Below, one piece after another: positions 1,197-29,433 of a stretch of 32,115 bases of DNA. The position numbers were made by a program, and so were the translations under genes. The notes below the pieces were generated by a model. The model was not told where the DNA came from, did no database searches, and saw nothing but the letters and a program-made list of their open reading frames with translations. Every line of letters starts with the position of its first letter. Position 1 is the stretch's first letter. Source of the DNA: a virus; IMG/VR virus record IMGVR_UViG_3300031699_000007, positions 1-32,115 of that record; one strand, written 5' to 3'.

Positions 1197-1234
1197 AAAT
1201 TGATAGTATCTTTTGTACAGGATTTTTACCAAAC
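1196..1234 (+). repeat. Imperfect direct repeat, copy A
   Basis: Begins with AAAATTGATAGTATC and ends with CCAAAC. It matches copy B (1332-1370) at the first 15 bases without mismatch and again at the terminal ACCAAAC, with about half of the bases between conserved. Both copies are 39 bp and have the same orientation, 136 bp apart. Copy A begins at the stop codon of the DUF5675 gene. Each copy contains TTGATA, which could serve as a -35 box, but neither has a good -10 box at the right distance, so the function is open: protein-binding site, phage-specific promoter or recombination remnant. Confidence 0.7.
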
Positions 1235-1331
1235 TTGTAAAATAACGATGCAGTAGTAAATTACAATATTGAAATATTATGGTTGATATTGCAATAATCA
1301 TGATTTTATTTAGGAATATAATAAATTGGCG

Positions 1332-1370
1332 AAAATTGATAGTATCGTCTATGCGGAAGTTTAACCAAAC
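1332..1370 (+). repeat. Imperfect direct repeat, copy B
   Basis: Second copy of the 39-bp repeat described at 1196-1234. It overlaps the left arm of the GC-rich folded element at 1358-1428. The region between the copies (1235-1331) is very AT-rich and holds no gene. Confidence 0.7.
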
Positions 1371-1428
1371 CGGGCTTGGGACCGGTGCGCGCATTAACCA
1401 GGCCGGAGCCTGGCCCCTCTGCTAAACT
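1358..1428. other. GC-rich folded intergenic element, possible terminator between convergent transcripts
   Basis: An island of high GC in an AT-rich gap between the rightward DUF5675 gene and the leftward gene at 1442-1726. AGTTTA (1358-1363) can pair with TAAACT (1423-1428), enclosing a hairpin CCAGGC-CGGA-GCCTGG (1398-1413) and a weaker one around CCGG repeats (1371-1385). No long T run follows on either strand, so a classical intrinsic terminator is only weakly supported. Its place between converging genes still makes transcription termination the simplest guess. The length and closing stem recall a tRNA, but no T-arm or anticodon arm fits. Confidence 0.4.
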
Positions 1429-1441
1429 GATCGTCAGGAGG

Positions 1442-1726
1442 TTAGATTTTATCGATGTTAGTTAAATAGTCGATTAAATCATTTTTTGACCATTTTTCTG
1501 ATTTTACTGATTCAATTACATCTCTGATTTCTGATCCGTCATAGCCATAATCCAGGATAACAACGTCAGTTTCATTCAATCCATGCAACGATGATGTCAG
1601 GTGGAATTTATTGCCGTCAAATAAAACCACTGGATTGCTCGGCAAATTGTTTTCGTCTGCGTTCAAAAATGTTTCATTCCAGCTACATAAAGCCGATTCT
1701 GTAATTTCTTTTTCTGCCGTTTTCAT
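1442..1726 (-). CDS. Small acidic protein of unknown function
   Basis: A 94-residue, rather acidic protein on the minus strand. I chose the start at 1726 because GGAGGG lies just upstream at proper spacing; an in-frame start at 1786 would add 20 residues but has no such site. The sequence holds a Trp-Asn-Glu-Thr segment, a central stretch NPVVLFDGNKFHLTSS and a run VVILDYGYDG that looks like a beta-hairpin, followed by C-terminal helices rich in Asp, Glu and Lys. I do not recognise a family. It is the second gene of a two-gene leftward unit with 1802-2029, sharing the promoter at 2069-2097. Confidence 0.7.
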   Translation of the reverse strand: MKTAEKEITESALCSWNETFLNADENNLPSNPVVLFDGNKFHLTSSLHGLNETDVVILDYGYDGSEIRDVIESVKSEKWSKNDLIDYLTNIDKI

Positions 1727-1754
1727 GTTGCCCTCCGTTTGATTTATTTCCGCG

Positions 1755-1790
1755 ACCGTCTCACGACGGTTTCGGCCGGATTCCACGGCC
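1755..1790. other. Two tandem hairpins between the minus-strand genes
   Basis: ACCGTC-TCAC-GACGGT (1755-1770, six pairs) is followed by GGCCG...CGGCC (1774-1790, five pairs). They lie in the 75-base gap between the two leftward genes. They are not followed by T runs on the minus strand, so they may protect or split the transcript rather than end it. Confidence 0.4.
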
Positions 1791-1801
1791 TCGTCAGGCG
1801 G

Positions 1802-2029
1802 TTATCTAACTATCCCACATTGGCAATCAGATATGCCGCACAATGCCCTACGTACCCGATTATACTGTTTCCTGTCAGGCTTGGTCGATACCGGATAAGC
1901 CTTTTCCTGTATATATGCCCATGCATCCTCTTGTGATCCGGCCGCATATTCCGGCACTCCCACACTTACAGACGTGCCGTGAAAGCTGTTGGTTAGTGTA
2001 ACCGTTTTCATTTTAATTTCTTTTTTCAT
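1802..2029 (-). CDS. Small phage protein with conserved Cys-containing C-terminus
   Basis: A 75-residue leftward gene with GGGAGGG just before its ATG. The C-terminal pattern VRRALCGISDCQCG and the N-terminal TLTNSFHGTSVSV match a small family I recall from many phages and mobile elements (a thr-leu-thr-asn-x-phe-his start, and an arg-rich helix then LCG-x-x-DC-x-CG). Its function is not known to me. The three clustered Cys residues could bind a metal, but only three are present, so this is uncertain. It is the first gene after the strong promoter at 2069-2097 and is likely expressed early, independently of the virion genes on both sides. Confidence 0.75.
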   Translation of the reverse strand: MKKEIKMKTVTLTNSFHGTSVSVGVPEYAAGSQEDAWAYIQEKAYPVSTKPDRKQYNRVRRALCGISDCQCGIVR

Positions 2030-2068
2030 ATCGCCCTCCCGTTTGATTTACTCTCAACCTCTATTGTT

Positions 2069-6632: not shown

Positions 6633-7034
6633 ATGCTGAAAGATAAAAACACGATGTTTTCTGACGATCAGGCAGTAACTACTACTGCGGCATCAACCAG
6701 CTACCTGGACCAATTGGCGGCCGGCAATGCTGTGGCGCCCGGCATTTGGCTGGACGTGCGGGTTAAAACAACGTTCACTGGCCAGGGTTCAACGACACTG
6801 ACGATTGCCCTTGAATGTGATGACAATACTAGCTTTAGCAGCGCAAAAACTCTTTTCACCACGGCGGCACTGGATGAATCCGTTCTCGTTGCAGGGTATC
6901 ACATCCGGGTAAAAGTGCCCATTGGAGCCGAACGGTATTTGCGTATGACTTACACCGTGGGCAGCGGCCCGATGACGGCAGGCAAAATCGATGCCTCCAT
7001 GCAGATGGATGTTGATATTACGGTGGAGGACTAA
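6633..7034 (+). CDS. Bbp16-like capsid cement (decoration) protein
   Basis: A 133-residue protein; ATG 6633 is preceded by GAGGTG at 6621-6626, better than the GTG at 6624 that lies within it. The opening (TMFSDDQAVTTTAAST) and the alternating beta-strand pattern with STTLTIALECDDNTSF resemble BPP-1 Bbp16. That protein was seen as a jelly-roll cement protein on the BPP-1 capsid. The location directly after the major capsid gene agrees. It should bind the outer shell and stabilise it after DNA filling. Confidence 0.82.
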   Translation: MLKDKNTMFSDDQAVTTTAASTSYLDQLAAGNAVAPGIWLDVRVKTTFTGQGSTTLTIALECDDNTSFSSAKTLFTTAALDESVLVAGYHIRVKVPIGAERYLRMTYTVGSGPMTAGKIDASMQMDVDITVED

Positions 7035-22599: not shown

Positions 22600-22669
22600 G
22601 CAGTTTGCCTACTTTCTGCGCGCCCGCCAGGGCATGGCCCGGTCTACCCTCCGAGATCGGGCCTTTTTT
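22600..22669 (+). ncRNA. Candidate small RNA of about 70 nt
   Basis: Between the possible promoter at 22565-22593 and the T run of the terminator. The predicted RNA could fold into GCAG/CTGC (22600-22603 with 22616-22619), GCCC-GCCA-GGGC (22622-22633) and the terminator stem. No open reading frame with a ribosome site lies inside. It could also be only the end of the lysis transcript; the possible promoter is the reason to consider an independent RNA. Confidence 0.35.
22636..22669 (+). terminator. Intrinsic terminator of the virion/lysis operon
   Basis: Ten-pair stem GGCCCGGTCT / AGATCGGGCC (one G-T pair) with an eight-base loop, followed at once by six T. It separates the late genes from the early promoter at 22712. 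Confidence 0.9.
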
Positions 22670-28048: not shown

Positions 28049-28330
28049 ATGTGCGAAGACAAAATAATTGATGATGATATTAGAATAGTTATTTTACAGC
28101 GGGGATGGGTTTTTGTTGGTTATTTTAAACGAAACGGTGATGACTGCAAATTATCGAAGGCGAGCAATATAAGGCGGTATGGAACAACAAAAGGGCTTGG
28201 CGAAATAGCGCTTAATGGCCCAACCGAAGAAACGATACTTGATAAATGTCACGGTGTGGTTGAATTTGACAAATTGACAATTATTGCTACGATAGCATGC
28301 GAGGTGTCGAAATGGGAAAACGCACTATAA
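28049..28330 (+). CDS. Conserved small phage protein (WxxxG...GTTKGLGEIA type)
   Basis: A 93-residue protein with AGGAG before its ATG. The sequence IVILQRGWVFVGYFKRNGDDC and RRYGTTKGLGEIALNGPTEETILD matches a small protein I recall from many unrelated phages and plasmids, usually with Trp at the position of Tyr in RRYGTTKG. The function is unknown. It overlaps the next gene by 19 bases, and the two together lie between the 14-bp repeats. Confidence 0.78.
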   Translation: MCEDKIIDDDIRIVILQRGWVFVGYFKRNGDDCKLSKASNIRRYGTTKGLGEIALNGPTEETILDKCHGVVEFDKLTIIATIACEVSKWENAL

Positions 28331-28560
28331 ATTTTGATGAAAATAAACACACGCACGCACCCGCCTATGGCTCATCCGGAGGCGATGGTAAAGGCGATGG
28401 GTTCGGTTATGGTTACATGGATATGGGTTTCGGTGATGGTTCAGGTTTAGGTATCGCTATAGATTGCGGAGATGGTATGGGTTATGGTGACGGTGGTGGC
28501 GATGGTAAAGGAAATGGAGTAGGCAACTGGCTTGGTGACGGTTCCGGTATAGGATATTAA
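28312..28560 (+). CDS. Gly-Asp-Gly repeat protein
   Basis: An 82-residue protein; ATG 28312 with GAGG seven bases upstream (an ATG at 28297 lacks one). After a short polar start with His-rich HTHAP the rest is nearly all Gly, Asp and Tyr: GDGKGDGFGYGYMDMG and GYGDGGGDGKGNG. The repeats of G-D-G-x-G could bind calcium, as other Asp-Gly repeats do, or form a flexible or glycine-helix-like structure. Similar Gly-Asp-rich small proteins occur beside homologues of the preceding gene in other phages, as far as I recall. No function known. Confidence 0.72.
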   Translation: MGKRTINFDENKHTHAPAYGSSGGDGKGDGFGYGYMDMGFGDGSGLGIAIDCGDGMGYGDGGGDGKGNGVGNWLGDGSGIGY

Positions 28561-28587: not shown

Positions 28588-28839
28588 ATGACTAAACCAA
28601 TCGACTGGCATGCACCTAAAAAAGTTTTTTATGACGAGGCGATAACAACAAAAAATTGGAAAGATGAGAAGGCGTTTTGGGAAAAAGAACGGCTTAAAAA
28701 TGATATTGCCTCTGCAGCAATCTGGCTGAAAATACAGCGTCAGTCAAAATTGTTGCTTGATGCAATTAATGAGATTGATGACATAGAATGTGATAAACTT
28801 GAAAAAGAAATGGCAGACACTAACTTTTGGCTGTTTTGA
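28588..28839 (+). CDS. Small acidic protein of unknown function
   Basis: An 83-residue protein with GGAGGG before the ATG. It contains IDWHAPKKVFYDEAITTKNWKDEKAFWEKERLKND and is Trp-, Lys- and Glu-rich, all helical. It was probably the direct downstream neighbour of ssb before the two-gene cassette was inserted (see repeat). It is followed by the folded intergenic element. Confidence 0.62.
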   Translation: MTKPIDWHAPKKVFYDEAITTKNWKDEKAFWEKERLKNDIASAAIWLKIQRQSKLLLDAINEIDDIECDKLEKEMADTNFWLF

Positions 28840-28843
28840 AAAA

Positions 28844-29017
28844 AGCGCGTCGGTGTTGAGCGTGAAACACTCGGCGGTTAATGAAGTCCATGGTGCTTCA
28901 TCCGCTTAGATGCAGAGATTGACCAGGCCCGGCTACGGTAGCTCTGACAGCCTAATAAGCTGTTATCTGCGCGGTCATTAAAACAAGGGCTTGCCGGAGT
29001 AGCGCCCGGCCCGCGCT
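28844..29017. ncRNA. Structured RNA candidate of unknown class
   Basis: A 174-nt element in a 195-base gap of an otherwise gapless operon, clearly richer in G and C than its flanks. Possible helices: closing stem AGCGCG (28844-28849)/CGCGCT (29012-29017); GTGTT/AACAC (28853-28870); GCGG and ATGAAG with CTTCAT and CCGC (28874-28905, three-base bulge); TGACC/GGTCA (28920-28924 with 28973-28977) enclosing GCTA-CGG-TAGC (28932-28942) and TGACAGC/GCTGTTA (28945-28965); GCCGG/CCGGC (28993-29010). They are mutually compatible. On the minus strand the closing stem is followed by six T, as in a terminated RNA; on the plus strand it leads to the ribosome site of the YopX gene. No known riboswitch, ribozyme, tRNA, 6S or RNase P pattern fits. 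Confidence 0.6.
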
Positions 29018-29034
29018 AAGTTTAAGGAGGAAAA

Positions 29035-29433
29035 ATGAGAGAGATAAAATTTAGGATATTTAATAACGAAATACCATGCATAAGAGATGTAAAAAATATC
29101 AGAATGTCCATAGTCGATCTTAATGAAATGGATTTTGGTGATGCCGAACTTTTAACCTATGCTCCCATAATAGAACAATACACCGGTCGTAAAGATAAAA
29201 ATGGAAAAGATATTTACGAAGGGGATATACTTGCAACTTGGAATGAAGATAATTATCCAGACATAGACAATTGGGATTTTAGAAATAATCCTGTCATTGT
29301 AAAATGGTCAGACAAGCTTAGTGGCTGGGACTTTGGTGGCTTAATGGATGATGATGAGGATTCCATGTACCATGAAAAATATTGCGGAATAATTGGAAAC
29401 ATCCACGAAGAACCGACGACCGGGAAGAGATAA
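29035..29433 (+). CDS. YopX family protein
   Basis: A 132-residue protein with AAGGAGG before the ATG. YopX hallmarks are present: opening MREIKFRIFN, then IEQYTGRKDKNGKDIYEGDIL, VIVKWSDKLSGWDF, and the end CGIIGNIHEEP. YopX proteins are common in phages of many hosts; function unknown. The folded element 28844-29017 lies in its leader and might control it. Confidence 0.92.
   Translation: MREIKFRIFNNEIPCIRDVKNIRMSIVDLNEMDFGDAELLTYAPIIEQYTGRKDKNGKDIYEGDILATWNEDNYPDIDNWDFRNNPVIVKWSDKLSGWDFGGLMDDDEDSMYHEKYCGIIGNIHEEPTTGKR

Follow-up and report, generated by a model that had tools for sequence, protein, structure and literature searches.

The window analysed here is a 32,115-nt stretch of viral DNA, and a non-coding gap of 195 nt, from a stop at 28839 to the start of a yopX gene at 29035, raises the question of whether this locus encodes a structured RNA and, if so, from which strand and in what relation to the adjoining genes. 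A first-pass annotation made from the sequence alone had described the gap as geneless, GC-rich and closed by the pairing of its own ends (AGCGCG/CGCGCT). This description holds: no open frame spans the gap on either strand in any of the six frames, its GC content is 53% (57% for 28844-29017) against 42% for the whole window, and the complementary ends are present in the sequence and correspond to a covarying helix, P1, in the family described below.

The gap and its folding potential

The 83-aa ORF that precedes the element (Table 1) is an orphan, its product having no relatives in viral or genome contigs and no Pfam match. No tRNA was detected in the window with ARAGORN or on the element with Rfam, and no promoter of the element's own was evident. 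Elsewhere in the window we recorded a type-P5 twister ribozyme in a gap of the structural region (1370-1423, minus strand; 57.4 bits, over the Rfam gathering score), a strong terminator-like hairpin upstream of the early region (22636-22663, plus strand; 10 pairs, then six T) and an 87-aa ORF of mostly Gly/Asp repeats (GDGKGDGFGYGYMD...) that overlaps the preceding gene (28297-28560, plus strand).

Folding energy was discarded as evidence, with no gain over shuffles on either strand or at any window size. For the element itself, the minimum free energy on the plus strand was -61.7 kcal/mol, compared with -60.3 +/- 4.6 in dinucleotide shuffles (z -0.32), and the fold of the minus strand was equally ordinary (z -0.57). 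Because the folding energy is ordinary, a structured RNA is not demonstrable from this single sequence; it is the relatives that, on comparative grounds, demonstrate one. Two features of the locus do stand above chance, namely the end pairing and the hairpin GCCGG-AGTAGCGC-CCGGC at 28993-29010, and both are parts of the covarying family. The bulged ten-pair hairpin noted earlier can indeed be drawn from the sequence (GCGG 28874-28877 and ATGAAG 28881-28886 with CTTCAT 28896-28901 and CCGC 28902-28905), but it is absent from the plus-strand minimum free energy fold, lies in the unconserved middle of the element and has no comparative support.

Relatives of the element and their common architecture

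The neighbouring genes did not lead to homologues. The portal protein of the window phage has about 37% identity at best to its relatives and no relatives in genome contigs, the relatives of YopX share only about 40% identity over most of the protein, and the element was absent from all 50 records reached through relatives of neighbouring genes; this route, with an orphan ORF on one side and YopX and portal relatives lacking the element, was dropped. Searching with the element itself by blastn gave two weak-looking matches, one of 24 identical bases in Roseomonas mucosa plasmids and one of 23 of 24 bases in Pseudomonas phage PotUPM1, where the motif lies at the end of an element of 200 bases whose termini form a long inverted repeat. 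When 20 conserved bases from near the 5' terminus of the PotUPM1 element were scanned over IMG/VR, they were found in at least 120 contigs, and a separate scan by one of the family's two hairpins (hairpin Z, see below) brought in members that differ in the stem of the other (hairpin A).

The resulting family is present in more than 120 IMG/VR contigs and extends over phages of Pseudomonas, Ochrobactrum and the cyanobacterial host Synechococcus, as well as Roseomonas plasmids. About a dozen of 50,697 cultured-phage records carry the element in the searches run here; by blastn these are phages of Pseudomonas, Ochrobactrum and Synechococcus only, and no match to the family was found in E. coli genomes. 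The blastn queries are blind to diverged members, so that the cultured-phage and genome counts are lower bounds. Blastn matches in JBD44 and Eidolon were rejected, as neither contains an element. Two elements can lie close together, sometimes near-tandem (L203:1078-1468, L166:228-618, L154, L188, L348 and L334), and the whole records G072, G078, G086 and G088 have two family matches each.

Nearly every member follows one plan, which from 5' to 3' comprises P1, a CG linker, hairpin A, a middle domain, hairpin Z and the 3' strand of P1 (P1'). P1 has about 9 bp and no common sequence. Hairpin A has 5 bp and usually the loop GAAAGCAGA, reading GCGUG-GAAAGCAGA-CACGC in most members, and hairpin Z, also of 5 bp, has the loop AGUAGCGM and mostly reads GCCGG-AGUAGCGM-CCGGC. 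The CG linker occurs in 120 of 126 members, and the junction is spaced by 2 nt on its 5' side and 0 nt on its 3' side in nearly all of the 94 two-hairpin members. The middle, of about 44 to 193 nt, is different everywhere and cannot be aligned across members, and the flanks outside P1 are not conserved. For a helix closing the middle there is aggregate support only (9.17 vs 7.46 +/- 0.28).

Two further proposals for this architecture were rejected: a pseudoknot formed by the A-middle linker with the middle, which looked good by eye in several members and was only 1.1 sd over swapped controls, and a CsrA sponge, for which the GGA at the Z loop is lost when the Z stem varies (GCCTC/GAGGC, ATCAG/CTGAT). 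The sequence TTAAAACRAGG or a near form of it was observed in the window middle (28977-28987) and in L168, L265, L266 and L172; three of these four other carriers are interrelated, and it is perhaps a sub-motif.

The stems are supported by compensatory changes. With 44 members, 14 of 22 pairs had changed on both sides and the covariation score was 0.501 against 0.125 shuffled; with 56 members, picked for variety, 19 of 22 pairs had done so and the score was 0.535, compared with 0.129 after shuffling and no more than 0.113 after sliding. Double changes affect 11 of 12 P1 pairs, and the Z stem covaries at 5 of 5. Pairing had played a part in picking both sets. For a third set, of 139 members, the criteria were the loop sequences and the stem of A, and P1 and Z did not have to pair; its cells are Watson-Crick in 1024 of 1112 cases for the inner eight P1 pairs and in 675 of 695 cases for Z. 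The A stem covaries too, since members selected by Z carry the alternative stems GCGGG/CCCGC, GCGCT/AGCGC and GCACG/CGTGC. All these counts are of sequences and not of independent events, the IMG/VR contigs being related to unknown degrees. A covariance model of gaps before yopX in related phages had been proposed as a check of the locus, and the stems do show compensatory changes, in a family found by motif and not via such gaps.

The 139-member set also bears on the strand. Among the inner seven P1 pairs there are 23 cases of G-U and 4 of A-C, and since this excess is unexpected for DNA or for the opposite strand, we infer an RNA of the plus strand. The suggestion that the RNA might be transcribed from the minus strand, antisense to the operon, is contradicted by the same excess and by a model match confined to one strand; the six T that follow the minus-strand closing stem exist, but no terminator-like site was called there.

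Covariance models from which the window had been excluded (R1, 44 members; R2, 56 members) both recovered its element. R1 gave a single match in the window, at 28839-29022 on the plus strand (30.6 bits, E 6e-6), and no match at E<=10 in 100 other phage loci totalling 908 kb. R2 gave 38.1 bits (E 1e-6), to which hairpin Z alone contributes about 22.5 and P1, the linker and A add about 16. The six P1 pairs of the window member are followed by a U-C mismatch at the innermost position and then by CG, there is no gap between Z and P1', and a 5-bp hairpin stands at the place expected for A, with the loop GAGCGTGA (8 nt) instead of GAAAGCAGA; variant A loops are also found in other Z-selected members. 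The diverged A loop, one mismatch inside P1 and a score drawn mostly from Z are its weak points, and judged from its sequence the window element clearly belongs to the family, though it has diverged.

Table 1. Positions in the window of the putative RNA element, its parts and the adjoining genes
Feature	Position	Strand	Remarks
Orphan ORF, 83 aa	28588..28839	+	Directly upstream of the element
Whole RNA element, 174 nt	28844..29017	+	Model envelope 28839-29022; sole R1/R2 match in the window
P1 5' strand, AGCGCG	28844..28849	+	Pairs with 29012-29017
U (mismatched innermost P1 position) and conserved CG linker	28850..28852	+	From the model alignment
Hairpin A, GUGUU-GAGCGUGA-AACAC, diverged loop	28853..28870	+	Assigned by position and 5-bp stem
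Variable middle domain, 122 nt	28871..28992	+	Unalignable across the family; includes the bulged ten-pair hairpin 28874-28905
Hairpin Z, GCCGG-AGUAGCGC-CCGGC, most constant part of the family	28993..29010	+	Only full-stem Z in the window
P1 3' strand, CGCGCU	29012..29017	+	Pairs with 28844-28849
YopX-family gene	29035..29433	+	Directly downstream; Pfam PF09643, 59 bits

Gene context and alternative explanations

Gene context was determined for 118 members with codon-bias gene calling, a naive ORF survey being unreliable in GC-rich contigs. Both neighbours lie on the strand of the element in 59 of the 118 members and both on the opposite strand in 16, and an ORF overlaps the element in only 5. 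Members on the same strand as their neighbours are often separated from the following start by under 50 nt. Several opposite-strand members have an extended -10-like box that runs up to the 5' edge of P1 (for example TGTGCTATCGT in L206, GTGTATATT in L247), and across all members the ten bases before the element contain 31 -10-like hexamers, with about 13 expected.

The neighbouring proteins are diverse, including RecE, terminase, portal, integrase, SSB, endolysin and methylase, and no neighbour family recurs in more than two of 87 proteins; the wider neighbourhood often contains CI-type repressors or SSB. The element follows the cI region in PotUPM1, the terminase in cyanophage Ssp-JY40 and the integrase in Persinger, where it faces a convergent gene; in Orimi01 it adjoins a repressor-like gene and in POI1126 it lies in an inverted block between the capsid and portal genes. 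Such a context is that of an accessory gene, not of a leader. In L169, about 0.9 kb before the element, a group I intron (1231-2035, plus strand) was matched at 39.8 bits (E 9e-7), short of the gathering score of 50 bits.

Because no neighbour family is shared and 16 members are antisense to both neighbours, several of them with a -10 box, we read the element as an independent RNA and not as a YopX leader. The latter role, which the first-pass annotation had assigned to a plus-strand transcript, would make the element a cis-acting leader or riboswitch, that is, a 5' UTR structure controlling the translation or transcription of the next gene. In the window only 17 nt separate its 3' end from the start codon of yopX, a gene of the same strand, and in about half of the members both neighbours share the strand of the element, often at a similarly short distance; but the ribosome-binding site of yopX lies in the window 3' of the element, outside P1, no downstream family recurs, 16 members are opposite to both neighbours, and others face a convergent gene. 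We consider a cis-acting leader unlikely. A self-cleaving ribozyme or processing element, whose conserved loops would form a catalytic core cutting the phage transcript, appears improbable too: two conserved loops, a constant junction and a variable domain are what a catalytic RNA might have, and a twister ribozyme is present elsewhere in the window, but no Rfam ribozyme model matches the elements and independent promoters at P1 are unfit for a pure processing signal.

The presence of SSB, recombination and integrase genes among the neighbours would be compatible with a structure of single-stranded DNA, used as a replication, recombination or packaging site, and not with an RNA at all; we regard this as very unlikely, given -10-like boxes at the 5' edge and a G-U over A-C excess inside P1 that DNA does not predict. 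It is scarcely tenable, finally, that the match to Z is accidental and that the locus holds the remnant of a degraded gene. Such a chance resemblance would be consistent with the ordinary folding energy, the diverged hairpin A and a score owed mostly to Z, but P1, the CG linker, the position of A and Z are all in place, the score exceeds that of Z alone and the control loci gave no match.

The explanation that we prefer, and hold to be probable without being secure, is a widespread family of autonomous phage non-coding RNAs of which the window element is one member; its function is untested and there are no expression data. The alignments show a predicted plus-strand RNA made up of P1, a 2-nt linker, A, a variable middle and Z directly on P1', and the evidence supports that the element is its own gene product, with no control of a neighbouring gene.

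No known class that we compared accounts for this RNA. The Rfam scan suggested for the locus gave nothing at the gathering cut-off on the window element and, at E<=10, three chance-level matches, all below gathering, and Rfam 15 gave no match on the scanned family elements, including at permissive E-values. The signature sequences are absent from 5.39 million open papers and no description of the family was found in the open literature, subscription journals and most preprints being outside the scope; a prior description cannot be excluded. With this reservation, the results support a previously unnamed and undescribed family of putative phage RNAs, and the initial idea of an undescribed structured RNA closed by its own ends is borne out by the compensatory changes, the recovery of the window element by models that excluded it and the lack of an Rfam match.

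Ties to tRNA and comparison with known RNAs

L175, L191 and L273 have a tRNA gene immediately adjoining the element, and in Ochrobactrum phage POI1126 one begins with the first base that follows the modelled P1'. Five members have T-arm hairpins whose ends lie 9, 10, 11, 18 and 22 nt upstream of P1 as placed by the model, and a T-arm lies inside the middle in 7 of 126 members, compared with 0.07 in shuffles. The topology of nearly all of the 94 two-hairpin members can likewise be described in tRNA terms, with an acceptor-like stem, a 2-nt linker, a D-like arm and a gapless T-like arm. Together with the adjoining tRNAs and the T-arms inside some middles, this layout suggests a connection with tRNA biology. 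Contrary to such a link, most middles have no tRNA-like content and most members are not near tRNAs, and a four-way junction could have the same layout by coincidence. The tRNA-like reading is one of layout and company, not of sequence, since the loops are not tRNA loops. Directly before P1 of the L211 element (6899-7007, minus strand) we also observed a second closed RNA-like unit (ATGCATCAGG/CCTGATGCAT), with two T-arm hairpins inside.

How such an RNA would be made and act can only be inferred. Transcription of some members would begin at a promoter of their own, next to the 5' side of P1; others, including the window member, may be part of a longer operon or tRNA-array transcript and be released from it, probably by processing of the tRNA type. 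Hairpins A and Z would form a compact core, whose docking and binding of a host factor are inferences only, and the exchangeable middle could have an effect particular to each phage, such as that of a tRNA decoy, for which there is no experiment or expression data. We tentatively propose, on weak inference, that A and Z build a tRNA-elbow-like core bound by a conserved host factor that takes part in tRNA or RNA metabolism and that the middle supplies a phage-specific activity, most likely that of a decoy or mimic protecting translation or tRNAs from host enzymes. A doubtful, wider version would be an RNA platform with the build of a tRNA, a fixed frame, tRNA-like maturation, a conserved host factor and middles that differ in activity, for instance as tRNA decoys that counter the nucleases of host defence.

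The occurrence of a covarying family across Pseudomonas, alphaproteobacterial and cyanobacterial phages would point to a shared but so far overlooked phage function, and the fixed frame, exchangeable middle and ties to tRNA genes together suggest a general tool directed at translation or RNA metabolism in the host. Pseudomonas phages Persinger and PotUPM1, Ochrobactrum phage POI1126 and Synechococcus phage Ssp-JY40 are culturable members, and a covariance model built from the alignments would allow the element to be annotated in genomes.

Among known systems, we group tRNA (RF00005) with tmRNA and the bacterial Y RNA YrlA, which are tRNA-like RNAs, as the closest. The family resembles tRNA in having a closing stem, a 2-nt linker, a first hairpin, a middle, a 5-bp second hairpin and a gapless junction, but differs from it in a P1 of about 9 bp without common sequence and in the loops GAAAGCAGA and AGUAGCGM, which are not D or T loops; no Rfam tRNA match covers a family element. 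The int-alpA RNA (RF02996) is likewise a small structured RNA of phage-type regions, but has a separate place and model and does not match the element; one such RNA was observed at L192:5542-5608 (minus strand), in a contig that also carries a family element. The nearest phage RNA class that we considered is the C4 antisense RNA of phages P1 and P7 (RF01695), a non-coding RNA class of Proteobacteria and phages identified by comparative genomics (PMC2864571). The family shares with it the character of a phage non-coding RNA found by that approach, but the RF01695 model does not match family members. A C4-like local antisense target was considered and rejected, as no complement of both loops is enriched in the flanks. 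Finally, GOLLD, ROOL and OLE are, according to PMC12286853, structured and covarying bacterial or phage RNAs of unknown role that form RNA-only assemblies. To that extent they are comparable to the family, but they are far larger and give no Rfam match to its elements, whereas the phage family is distinguished by a small fixed frame around an exchangeable middle.
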